From: Betaproteobacteria bacterium | GTDB lineage: Bacteria; Pseudomonadota; Gammaproteobacteria; Burkholderiales; Usitatibacteraceae | Direction of reading: 5' to 3' | Length of the DNA stretch: 34,791 nucleotides | NCBI GenBank assembly: GCA_016790625.1 | Contig: JAEUNB010000171.1 | Span: 1-34,791, forward strand | Shown here: one piece after another, positions 13,544 through 33,195 of the stretch | Position numbering within the stretch: the first letter of the stretch is position 1 | Layout: each line of letters opens with the position of its first letter | Made by a program: the position numbers and the translations under genes | The notes under the pieces: model-generated | Told to the model about the DNA's origin: nothing | The model's database searches: none | What the model saw: the letters and a program-made list of their open reading frames with translations, nothing else

Positions 13544-14359
13544 ATGCTGCCTAAAGCGATCCTGTTCGATCTCGACGACACGCTGTTCGATCACTGGCGT
13601 GCCTCGTCTATCGCGCTCGCGGCGATGCGCGAGGCGTTTGCGCCGGACCTGCCGCTGGATCTATTTGCCGAGCGCCACGCAGAAGTGCTTGAGCAATTTC
13701 ACACGCGTTTTCTTGCCGGTGAATTCACGCTTGATCAGGCGCGCGAGGCGCGCATGCGAGCGCTGTTTGCCTCATTCGATCGCGAGATTGAGTCAGCAAC
13801 GGCAGCGCAGGCCGCGCTTCTGTACAGACAGCAACATCAATCGAACCGGCATTTGCTGGATGGCGCGCGCGATCTGCTGGACGTGCTCGCCGGACAATGC
13901 CGCCTCGGCATCGTCACCAACAACAGCACGGCCGAGCAAATCGAGAAACTGCGCGCGCTGAACATTGCCAGCTATTTCGACACCATCGTGATTTCGGAGG
14001 ATGTTGGCGTCACCAAGCCGGACCAAAAAATTTTCGCCATCGCGCTGGAGCGCATCGGCGCGAAGCCGTATGAAACCGTCTTTATCGGCGACAACTGGAC
14101 CAACGATATCGCCGGCGCAACAGCAGCCGGGATGACTGCTGTGTGGCTGAATCGCGATGGACAAACTCCAGTACCGGCGCGGCCTGCAGGGCAAAAATGG
14201 CCTGAAAGCCGCGCCAATACTGGAGTTTCATCTACGGCCGTAGAAACCATTCATTCCCTCGCGCCCACCACCTCGGTACTGGCCGCGATTAAAACAGCAT
14301 TTGAAAAACGCACTCCCGGAGTAGAAAAGCATGAGCAACTGGAAACACTGGCATCTTGA
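13544..14359 (+). CDS. HAD-family hydrolase (subfamily IA, YjjG-like) carrying an in-frame repeat element
   Basis: A 271-residue haloacid-dehalogenase phosphatase of the cytoplasm. All four HAD motifs are visible: LFDLDDTLFD (nucleophile Asp and acid/base Asp), IVTNNST, the Lys in GVTKPDQKIF, and FIGDNWTNDIAGA. It looks closest to the nucleotidase/YjjG type; its substrate is unknown. Residues at about 207-229 (QTPVPARPAGQKWPESRANTG and onward) are encoded by a 66-bp palindromic repeat. The normal HAD tail seems to resume with ETIHSL. The last 29 bp overlap the start of the FadJ-like gene. The ribosome-binding site is weak. The link to beta-oxidation is unclear; it may remove a phosphorylated side product or simply have been captured by the operon. 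Confidence 0.9.
   Translation: MLPKAILFDLDDTLFDHWRASSIALAAMREAFAPDLPLDLFAERHAEVLEQFHTRFLAGEFTLDQAREARMRALFASFDREIESATAAQAALLYRQQHQSNRHLLDGARDLLDVLAGQCRLGIVTNNSTAEQIEKLRALNIASYFDTIVISEDVGVTKPDQKIFAIALERIGAKPYETVFIGDNWTNDIAGATAAGMTAVWLNRDGQTPVPARPAGQKWPESRANTGVSSTAVETIHSLAPTTSVLAAIKTAFEKRTPGVEKHEQLETLAS
14163..14228. repeat. 66-bp palindromic repeat, copy 1, inside the HAD gene
   Basis: The most symmetrical copy. The outer arms AAACTCCAGTA (14163-14173) and TACTGGAGTTT (14218-14228) pair over 11 bp, the middle arms GGCGCGGC and GCCGCGCC over 8 bp, and the inner CAGG/CCTG closes an A-rich loop. By hand count it is identical to copy 2 at 44 of 66 and to copy 3 at 42 of 66 ungapped positions. Being 66 bp long, it adds exactly 22 codons without a stop or frameshift. 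No target-site duplication is evident. Confidence 0.85.
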
Positions 14360-21237: not shown

Positions 21238-21662
21238 CGACGGAAAAACAGGATTCGCCGGAACCGTTTTGCGAAGTGGTGGCGTTGCCCGAAGGGCGGC
21301 AGCCGGTGATCCGCATCATCCCGATGCCGGCCGACACCAACGCGCACGGCACCATTTTCGGCGGCTGGGTAATGGCGCAGGTCGACCTGGCAGGCAGCGT
21401 GCCCGCGACGGTGCGCGCGCGCGGCAAGGTGGTGACGGTGTCGGTGAATTCGTTCCAGTTCAAGCAGCCGGTACTGGTAGGCGATTTGGTGAGTTTTTAC
21501 GCCGACGTGGTGAAAGTGGGCCGCACCTCGCTGACAGTGGACGTGGAGGTATACGCGCAGCGGCAGCGCTTCGGCGCCGAGGTTGTGAAGGTGACGGAGG
21601 CGCAGCTGACCTATGTCGCCATCGACGATCAGCGCAAGCCGCGCACGGTGCCTGCCGAATGA
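21234..21662 (+). CDS. YciA-like acyl-CoA thioesterase (hotdog fold)
   Basis: A 142-residue acyl-CoA thioester hydrolase. The motif NAHGTIFGGWVMAQVDLAG carries the Asn and Gly-rich elements of YciA/ACOT-type enzymes, followed by KVVTVSVNSFQFKQPVLVGDLVSF and the C-terminal strands. The start codon is GTG, overlapping the ligase stop (GTGA), so translation is coupled. Together with the DUF4442 protein the operon has two thioesterases of different families, probably with different chain-length ranges. A 66-bp palindromic repeat follows its stop. Confidence 0.9.
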   Translation: MTTEKQDSPEPFCEVVALPEGRQPVIRIIPMPADTNAHGTIFGGWVMAQVDLAGSVPATVRARGKVVTVSVNSFQFKQPVLVGDLVSFYADVVKVGRTSLTVDVEVYAQRQRFGAEVVKVTEAQLTYVAIDDQRKPRTVPAE

Positions 21663-21696: not shown

Positions 21697-21762
21697 AAAC
21701 TCAAGCATTGGCGGGAATCACGGGCCATTATTGGCCTGGAAGCCGCACCAGATATAGAGTTT
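21697..21762. repeat. 66-bp palindromic repeat, copy 2 (intercistronic)
   Basis: Ends AAACTC and GAGTTT, middle arms TGGCGG and CCGC(A)CCA, inner GGCC-ATTATT-GGCC. By hand count it shares 44 of 66 positions with copy 1 and 45 of 66 with copy 3, without gaps. An extra GAGTTTT at 21661-21667, overlapping the thioesterase stop, is complementary to the left end (AAAACTC, 21696-21702), so two alternative hairpins are possible. The element fills much of the 134-bp gap before the next gene. Confidence 0.85.
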
Positions 21763-21796: not shown

Positions 21797-24169
21797 GTGA
21801 GTAATTTCCATATCCGAAAAGTCGCCGTGCTGGGTGCCGGCGTGATGGGCGCGCAGATCGCCGCGCATCTGACCAACGCCGGTGTGAAGGCCATTCTGTT
21901 CGATCTCGCCGCCAAGGAAGGGCCGAAGAATGGCATCGTCACCAAGGCAATTGATGGCATGCTGAAACTCTCGCCCGATCCGTTCGCAGCGAAATCAAAA
22001 GCTGCGCTGATCACGCCTGCCAACTACGACGAGAATCTTGAGTGGCTGAAGGGGTGCGACCTCATCATCGAGGCGATATCCGAGCGCATGGACTGGAAGA
22101 AATCGCTGTACGAGAAAGTCGCGCCGTTCATGCGTGCCGATGCAATCTTCGCCTCCAACACGTCGGGCCTGTCGATCACGGAACTGTCGAAAGTGTTTCC
22201 GGAGGCGCTGCGTCATCGCTTCTGCGGCGTACATTTCTTTAATCCGCCGCGTTACATGAAGCTGGTCGAGCTGATCCCGACCGCCGCCACCGAACCGGCA
22301 GTGATGGATCTGCTGGAAAGCTTCCTCACCACCACCGTTGGCAAGGGCGTGATTCGGGCGAATGACACGCCTAACTTCGTCGCCAACCGCATCGGTGTGT
22401 TCTCGATCGCCGCGACCATGCATCATACGCAGGCGTTCAAGCTGGCCTTCGATGAAGTCGATGCGTTAACCGGTCCCGCCATCGGTCGCGCCAAGAGTGC
22501 CACCTTCCGTACTGCCGATGTGGTCGGACTGGACACGCTGGCCCACACCTTCAAGACCATGGACGACAACCTGCCGAACGATCCGTGGCACAAGTTCTAC
22601 GCCGTGCCGCCGTACCTGAAGGCGATGATCGAGAAGGGCGTGCTGGGCCAAAAGACCAAGGCGGGGTTCTTCACCAAGAAAGGTAAGGACATCCTGACGC
22701 TGGACCTCGCCAAGCAGGACTATGTGCCGGGTACCGGCAAGGTGGCTGATGAAGTCGCTGCCATGCTGAAGATCAAGAATCCAGCCGAGCAATTCGCAGC
22801 GTTGCGTGCCTCCAGTCATCCGCAGGCGCAATTCCTCTGGTCGATTTTCCGCGATGTGTTTCATTACATCGCCGTGCATCTCGGCAGCGTGGCTGACTCC
22901 GCGCGCGATATCGACTTTGCCATCCGCTGGGGCTTTGGCTGGAAGATGGGGCCGTTTGAAACCTGGCAGGCCGCTGGATGGGAACAAGTCGCCAAGTGGA
23001 TTTCCGAGGACATCGCCGCCGGCAAGACCATGGCGAAAGAGCCGCTGCCGGCATGGGTCACGGATGGAAGAAAGGGCGTGCATTCCGCTGAAGGTTCGTA
23101 TTCCGCCAAGAGCGGCAAGATGGTGCCGCGTTCGTCGCTCGCCGTCTATCAGCGTCAGTTGTTCCCGGAATTGCTGCTCGGCGAAAAGGGTGAGAAAGGC
23201 GCGACCGTTTTCGAAACCGACGCCGTGCGCATGTGGACCGCGAAGGGTTTCGACGATGTCGCCATCGTGTCCTTCAAAACCAAGATGCACGCCATCAGTC
23301 CCGATGTGCTGGAAGGCCTGGGGCAAGTCATCGACAAGGCCGAAGCCGGTTACAAGGCACTGGTGATCTGGCAACCGGATGGTCCGTATGCCGTGGGTGC
23401 AGATCTCAAGAATGCGCTAGGCGCATTGCAGGCCGGTCAGTTCGACCAGTTTGAATCCATGGTCGCCAGGTTTCAGGCCACGTCGCAACGCATCAAGTAC
23501 AGCATGATCCCCGTTGTGTCTGCTGTGGACGGCATGGCGCTCGGCGGTGGCTGCGAATTCCAGATGCATTCGGATCGTGTGGTCGCGACACTGGAAAGCT
23601 ACATCGGCCTGGTTGAGGCTGGTGTCGGCTTGTTGCCCGCGGGCGGCGGTCTCAAGGAAATGGCGCTGCGTGCCGCGCTCGCCGCCAATGGGGGCGACCT
23701 GATGCCCTATCTGCAGAATTCGTTCAAGCGCGCAGCGATGGGCGAAGTCTCCACCAGTGCGCTGAATGCGAAAGAGATGGGTCACATGCGCTGGCGCGAC
23801 ATCATCGTGTTTCACCGCGATGAGTTGCTGTACGTCGCATTGACCACGGCGCGCGCGATGGCTGAAGCCAGCTACCGCCCACCGCTGGCACCGACCGCAT
23901 TCCCGGTTGCAGGCAACACCGGCATCGCCACGCTGAAGATGATGCTGATCAACATGAAGGAGGGCGGCTTCATTTCCGAGCACGACTACGAAGTTAGCTC
24001 ACGCATCGCCGAATGCTTATGCGGCGGCGAAGTCGAGCCGGGCTCGATGGTGAATGAGGACTGGATGCTGATGCTGGAGCGCAAGAATTTTGTGGCCTTA
24101 GCCAAGACGGAAAAGACGCAGCAGCGCATCGAGTTCATGCTGAAAAACGGCAAGCCGCTGCGTAATTAA
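21797..24169 (+). CDS. 3-hydroxyacyl-CoA dehydrogenase / enoyl-CoA hydratase fusion (dehydrogenase first)
   Basis: A 790-residue bifunctional enzyme with the domain order opposite to FadJ/FadB. The NAD-binding domain is N-terminal (VAVLGAGVMGAQIAAHL, catalytic His in CGVHFFNPPRYMKLVEL) and is followed by 3HCDH domains (about 190-420). The crotonase domain is at the C-terminus from about 480, with YAVGADLKN and both Glu residues (ALGGGCEFQM, GLVEAGVGLLPAGGG). The start is GTG 21797, fixed by CAGGAG (21785-21790) 6 nt before it. It is 21 bp from the FadA-type thiolase, its likely partner. It is thus a second hydratase/dehydrogenase set in the same operon. Confidence 0.93.
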   Translation: MSNFHIRKVAVLGAGVMGAQIAAHLTNAGVKAILFDLAAKEGPKNGIVTKAIDGMLKLSPDPFAAKSKAALITPANYDENLEWLKGCDLIIEAISERMDWKKSLYEKVAPFMRADAIFASNTSGLSITELSKVFPEALRHRFCGVHFFNPPRYMKLVELIPTAATEPAVMDLLESFLTTTVGKGVIRANDTPNFVANRIGVFSIAATMHHTQAFKLAFDEVDALTGPAIGRAKSATFRTADVVGLDTLAHTFKTMDDNLPNDPWHKFYAVPPYLKAMIEKGVLGQKTKAGFFTKKGKDILTLDLAKQDYVPGTGKVADEVAAMLKIKNPAEQFAALRASSHPQAQFLWSIFRDVFHYIAVHLGSVADSARDIDFAIRWGFGWKMGPFETWQAAGWEQVAKWISEDIAAGKTMAKEPLPAWVTDGRKGVHSAEGSYSAKSGKMVPRSSLAVYQRQLFPELLLGEKGEKGATVFETDAVRMWTAKGFDDVAIVSFKTKMHAISPDVLEGLGQVIDKAEAGYKALVIWQPDGPYAVGADLKNALGALQAGQFDQFESMVARFQATSQRIKYSMIPVVSAVDGMALGGGCEFQMHSDRVVATLESYIGLVEAGVGLLPAGGGLKEMALRAALAANGGDLMPYLQNSFKRAAMGEVSTSALNAKEMGHMRWRDIIVFHRDELLYVALTTARAMAEASYRPPLAPTAFPVAGNTGIATLKMMLINMKEGGFISEHDYEVSSRIAECLCGGEVEPGSMVNEDWMLMLERKNFVALAKTEKTQQRIEFMLKNGKPLRN

Positions 24170-32746: not shown

Positions 32747-33130
32747 ATGAATGCAAATGCGCAGCAGTTGATTGGCTCGGGTGCGGTGCTCGCTTTCCTC
32801 GGCGTGGCGTTGGGGGCGTTCGGCGCCCATGCGCTTAAAGCGAAGCTGGCTGCAGACATGCTGGCCGTCTATCAAACCGGCGTGCAATACCATCTGTGGC
32901 ATGCGCTGGGTGTGGTGTTGATCGGTATCGTTGCGCAACTATTGCCGGCGTCGAAATGGATGCCGATCGCAGGCTGGACCATGGTTGCCGGGGTTGTCGT
33001 GTTCAGCGGCAGCCTTTATGCGCTGGCGATCAGCGGTGTCCGCGTGTTGGGGGCGATTACGCCGATTGGCGGTGTGGCATTGCTGGCAGCATGGTTACTG
33101 TTGTCATATGGCGTGATCAAGGCTGGTTGA
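32747..33130 (+). CDS. DUF423 small membrane protein (YgdD-like)
   Basis: A 127-residue inner-membrane protein with four predicted helices (about 6-26, 45-63, 70-88, 97-120). The DUF423 signature is present: GAVLAFLGVALGAFGAHALK, YQTGVQYHLWHALGVVLIG and FSGSLYALAISGVRVLGAITPIGG in parts. Function unknown. A TTG at 32735 is in frame, but GGAG (32737-32740) favours ATG 32747. The terminal TGA (33128-33130) shares its last base with repeat copy 3. Confidence 0.9.
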   Translation: MNANAQQLIGSGAVLAFLGVALGAFGAHALKAKLAADMLAVYQTGVQYHLWHALGVVLIGIVAQLLPASKWMPIAGWTMVAGVVVFSGSLYALAISGVRVLGAITPIGGVALLAAWLLLSYGVIKAG

Positions 33131-33195
33131 AATTCAAGCATCGGCGATGCCCTCCAGCCATTTTTAGCCCGAAACCCTTGCCAGTGATTGAGTTT
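33130..33195. repeat. 66-bp palindromic repeat, copy 3
   Basis: Ends AAATTC (one G-U pair) and GAGTTT; block AAGCAT-CGGCG is shared with copy 2 and GCCATTTTTAGCC fills the centre. By hand count it is identical to copy 2 at 45 of 66 and to copy 1 at 42 of 66 ungapped positions. The palindrome is weaker than in copy 1, suggesting decay. It begins at the final base of the DUF423 stop codon. Confidence 0.8.

Follow-up and report, generated by a model that had tools for sequence, protein, structure and literature searches.

How does a palindromic repeat come to be read in frame as part of a hydrolase gene, and what kind of repeat is it? Palindromes lying in frame within genes are familiar mainly from Rickettsia and Wolbachia, which have small, obligate intracellular genomes, and the usual account of them is that they are tolerated selfish DNA. 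The present case comes from a betaproteobacterium (contig JAEUNB010000171.1), of which a stretch of 34,791 nucleotides, hereafter the window, was analysed as a whole. The window holds three copies of a 66-bp palindromic element, one of them inside a HAD hydrolase gene (Table 1), and the original prediction likened this copy to the Rickettsia palindromic elements (RPEs). It is probably one member of a genus-specific family that is mainly 3′-terminator-like, the rare landings of which in genes are translated and tolerated.

Table 1. Positions of the HAD gene and of copies of the 66-bp element (window coordinates unless another sequence is named)
Feature	Position	Strand	Remarks
HAD hydrolase gene, in-frame host of copy 1	13544..14359	+	ORF; Pfam HAD_2 9.4e-28; fold match
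Copy 1, 66-bp palindromic element	14163..14228	.	Inverted repeat; fold z -8.2; family match
Copy 2, intergenic, 34 nt past the stop of the ORF ending at 21662	21697..21762	-	48/66 identical to copy 1
Copy 3, intergenic	33130..33195	-	44/66 identical to copy 1
MutS copy	L312 1877-1942		Orthologues L332, L333, L334, L350, L352
PrmC copy	L314 1506-1571

An in-frame palindrome in the HAD hydrolase gene

Copy 1 is a dispersed palindrome inserted in frame, as had been predicted. Its two arms (14163-14193 and 14198-14228), each of 31 nt and 84% complementary, enclose a 4-nt loop, and the RNA folds at -43.9 kcal/mol as against -19.3 ± 3.0 kcal/mol for shuffled sequences (z = -8.2). The element begins on the second base of a codon, contains no stop and, being 66 nt long, adds 22 codons' worth of sequence to the ORF, which is complete and intact; its translation is (Q)TPVPARPAGQKWPESRANTGV(S). 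In fold comparison, the product matches HAD structures, e.g. YfnB (3i76). Both intergenic copies in the window are more decayed (fold z of -4.0 for copy 2 and -2.6 for copy 3), which bears out the earlier view that copy 1 is the best preserved of the three. The last 29 nt of the HAD gene (14331-14359) are shared with the beginning of the next gene downstream; the latter is enoyl-CoA hydratase / 3-hydroxyacyl-CoA dehydrogenase-like, and the neighbourhood resembles a fatty-acid degradation cluster.

The nearest outgroup orthologue of the HAD protein, which belongs to another genus of the family and is 47% identical, and two more distant orthologues all lack 18-20 residues at the insert site, which lies after the strand that ends in WLNR and before the ETIHSL tail; the net insertion is of that size. 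Orthologues carrying an unrelated segment of equal length, as would be expected of normal protein sequence, were not found. The orthologue of another species in the genus (G010; protein 68% identical) has a segment of equal length at the same site, and this is a diverged copy of the element, identical at 47 of 66 nucleotides. That equal length might be taken to mean that the segment is ordinary HAD sequence, palindromic by accident, a reading with practically no chance of being correct: the outgroups are without the segment, and the 66-mer recurs at unrelated sites, well over a hundred in number, by which this reading is already refuted. The shared site makes the insertion older than the split of the two species, and a recent insertion, one of two explanations originally offered for the good preservation of copy 1, is thereby contradicted. 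Elsewhere in the genus, the contig of the G004 orthologue ends at residue 173, short of the insert site, and no close HAD orthologue was found in the other ten genomes. The insert has changed faster than the remaining gene, with a pN/pS of 0.61 compared with 0.34, but its frame has been kept. AlphaFold2 produced a confident HAD fold (mean pLDDT of 87 over the whole model) in which the insert is modelled as a flexible, disordered loop (pLDDT of about 41), in keeping with the exposed loop that had been proposed.

The other explanation originally offered, selection on the HAD mRNA hairpin itself, e.g. for translation modulation or mRNA shielding, is weakly hinted at by the data and seems to us improbable. 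Copy 1 is among the best-scoring family members of its genome, and the G010 HAD copy has kept 10 of its 11 outer-stem pairs, two of them through compensatory changes at both bases (TA to AT and TA to CG). The inner stem of that copy has decayed, however, its CACCAG outer arms are also present in other G010 copies, and neither HAD copy is followed by a U-rich tail. When the G010 HAD copy was compared with random substitutions, the outer stem, a part chosen post hoc, gave a P of 0.027, whilst the whole stem gave 0.17. The coding copies would appear to be tolerated neutrally or near-neutrally.

A family of 66-bp repeats

The family was searched for with BLAST and subsequently with a covariance model built from 39 copies. 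In the source genome there are at least 150 family matches, at roughly 130 or more distinct sites, nearly all of them exactly 66 bp long; some matches are one site found on both strands because the element is palindromic. A sample of 406 kb, consisting of 20 regions of large contigs together with the window, contains 44 copies, which extrapolates to about 450 per genome. The family profile gave zero matches in reversed 20-kb regions, and chance can therefore be excluded. Among the genomes compared, some of which are fragmentary, the family is present in all 13 of the genus, with between 11 and at least 150 matches each, and absent from all 15 sister-genus genomes searched; as far as these sequences indicate, this family of hairpin repeats is confined to the genus. 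No match to Rfam 15 at gathering score was obtained in the window, and plasmid records likewise gave no match. In a test for within-genome homogenisation, the identity between paralogues (about 0.70) was similar to that between orthologues (0.64-0.85), and thus gives no clear sign of concerted evolution. A weak outer palindrome, CCGCAT...ATGCGG, lies about 10-16 nt outside some intergenic copies of genome G000; the HAD copy is without it.

Location at the 3′ ends of genes

Not recognised in the original prediction were the usual place of the family, just 3′ of genes, and its resemblance to a terminator. In a set of 117 copies, biased toward well-preserved ones, 103 lie between genes, 13 touch the end of one and a single copy is within a gene, according to the calls of a simple, home-made codon-usage gene caller that was checked on the window. 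The copies lie a median of 20 nt past stop codons and 104 nt ahead of start codons, with 71 in tandem gaps, 35 in convergent and three in divergent ones. Copy 3 starts on the final base of a stop codon, which belongs to the ORF ending at 33130, and several further copies share one or two bases with a stop codon in the same manner.

Read in the direction of the upstream gene, the sequence that follows the element is rich in T (0.5-0.6 at positions 1 and 4-6), and 33% of copies are followed by at least four T in six bases, compared with 1.8% at a control position. The palindrome also covaries, with 178 double Watson-Crick changes vs 111 ± 7.6 in shuffles; in other species 71 double changes were counted vs 38. 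A smaller initial test had given a weaker signal. Covariation in a palindrome can also come from hairpin-templated mutation, without selection. Taken statistically, the intergenic copies have the layout of an intrinsic terminator, namely a GC-rich hairpin with a U-rich tail, located after stop codons, but the runs of T are short, at 3-4 in most copies, so that classical intrinsic termination is not certain. From these features, the intergenic copies most likely act as a two-way intrinsic terminator or as a 3′-end mRNA hairpin. Lone arms were considered as uptake signals and rejected: the 406-kb sample has only five solo arms vs 76 in palindromes, and none of the five lies in a called gene.

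The bias towards 3′ ends need not reflect function. If the family were mobile, in the manner of MITEs or REPs, and its random insertions were purged from genes, the same bias would arise through survivorship, and the several hundred copies at many sites, the variation in copy number among species and the existence of copies inside coding sequence all accord with such a history. We regard it as unlikely, though deserving serious weight. Avoidance of promoter regions could account for the few divergent gaps (three vs 35 convergent), but not for a T-rich tail oriented with the upstream gene. Moreover, no transposase or other mobilising enzyme has been linked to the family, and most of the genus has related hairpins at the orthologous place in the gap that holds copy 2, upstream of the ORF at 21797-24169. 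In G002 and G009 (L367, L368) this gap contains diverged hairpin-like sequence near the place of the 66-mer.

On the preferred reading, that of a mainly 3′-terminal family with occasional coding members, most copies would reside behind genes in one of the two roles proposed above, and now and then one would land within a gene. Because it is 22 codons long and stop-free in most frames, such a copy could pass into the protein, where it would be tolerated as a flexible loop, and the HAD copy would have been retained since before the two species split.

Copies within other genes

Coding copies account for three of the 44 in the 406-kb sample, or about 7%. Besides the HAD gene, the source genome carries in-frame copies in the genes for UppS, a TIR protein, a UvrD-type helicase, MutS and PrmC, and other species have them in an M61 peptidase (G010) and a patatin-like protein (G003). 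The coding copies are without a U-rich tail. Of the reading frames of intergenic copies, 57-79% are free of stops, as against 40% for shuffled sequence, a property that would ease coding capture. The frame bias of the later coding copies means little because they were found by a peptide search in one reading frame. Some long ORFs running across intergenic copies were discarded as antisense or spurious.

The UppS copy occurs at the same site and in the same frame in the source genome and nine others of the genus (10 of 13). In these nine it has diverged, with 41-51 of its 66 positions identical to the consensus; the outgroup genes tested reach 34 at best. At the insert site, UppS of G002, G007 and G009 and of sister genera has a shorter segment, and E. 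coli UppS is without 18 residues. The structure model of UppS was too uncertain for the insert to be located. The copy in this enzyme, which is essential in known bacteria, has been retained in ten species. With 13 genomes of graded divergence available, the conversion of a non-coding hairpin into protein sequence becomes traceable, and the neutrality of the resulting loop testable.

The copies in MutS and PrmC do not look like simple insertions. In MutS, where the element looks as if it were written over native codons, there is zero net change of length relative to most relatives without the element and to E. coli MutS; in PrmC, the copy overlaps a native EQALARL stretch and the protein has about seven extra residues relative to the E. 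coli enzyme. A bolder proposal, which we think rather unlikely, is that the terminator hairpin serves as a recurrent protein-building module in the genus, with both of these copies having overwritten native codons at little change of length. Overwriting, if true, would imply copying by conversion or by hairpin-templated strand switching, and not by transposition.

As a route by which copies spread, mobilisation by a RAYT was rejected: two Y1_Tnp genes were found, one with GTAG repeats of its own and the other with no copy of the element in the surrounding 3.3 kb. At L096 (1265-1330 and 1363-1905), inverted GTAG repeats belonging to a different family stand on both sides of a gene for a RAYT-type Y1 transposase, and a relative of the 66-mer adjoins this gene.

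Comparison with known systems

Inverted pairs of DNA uptake sequences in Neisseria and Pasteurellaceae function as terminators and, like the present family, form a conserved inverted repeat at gene 3′ ends; unlike uptake sequences, the arms of the 66-mer almost never occur outside palindromes. The REP/RAYT systems share with it the abundance of short palindromic repeats, but the consensus of the 66-mer lacks the GTAG foot, and the RAYT examined (L096) has GTAG repeats of its own. ERIC/RU-1 and the 107-bp Correia element are also small and mostly intergenic, with some in-frame gene fusions, but they are longer (107-127 bp) and have TA termini and target-site duplications (PMC2229807), whereas no fixed TA terminus was seen in the 66-mer. 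SPRITE resembles the family as a dispersed repeat with a terminator-like structure, and the available part of its source (PMC10969869) contains no description of coding copies. Within an incomplete coverage of the literature, no report was found of a single family that is both terminator-like and coding in frame.

In-frame MITE fusions are known in enterobacteria and Neisseria, and protein-coding palindromes in Wolbachia (PMC2229807, PMC10969869), so that the original description of coding capture as unusual outside Rickettsia was too strong. With RPEs and the Wolbachia palindromes, as described in the same reviews (PMC2229807, PMC10969869), the family shares a dispersed palindrome that lies in frame in ORFs and adds a peptide that conserved enzymes tolerate, and the RPE hallmark of such palindromes in unrelated ORFs is seen here in the HAD, UppS, TIR protein and UvrD-type helicase genes. 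RPEs are longer, at about 105-150 bp vs 66 bp (PMC2229807 and PMC10969869), and nearly half of them lay in ORFs in the first R. conorii report (PMC10969869), vs the low coding fraction found here. The family's main form, unlike that of RPEs, is terminator-like and located at gene 3′ ends, and the predicted likeness to Rickettsia palindromes holds for the coding copies and their recurrence in other genes, but not for the family's usual home. By analogy, the coding copies would seem to work like RPEs, a likeness of features that stops short of membership. The same outcome is met in a lineage with a 4.1-Mb genome and 58% GC in the window, values that speak against a Rickettsia host, and from a repeat whose main form resembles a functional 3′-end hairpin.
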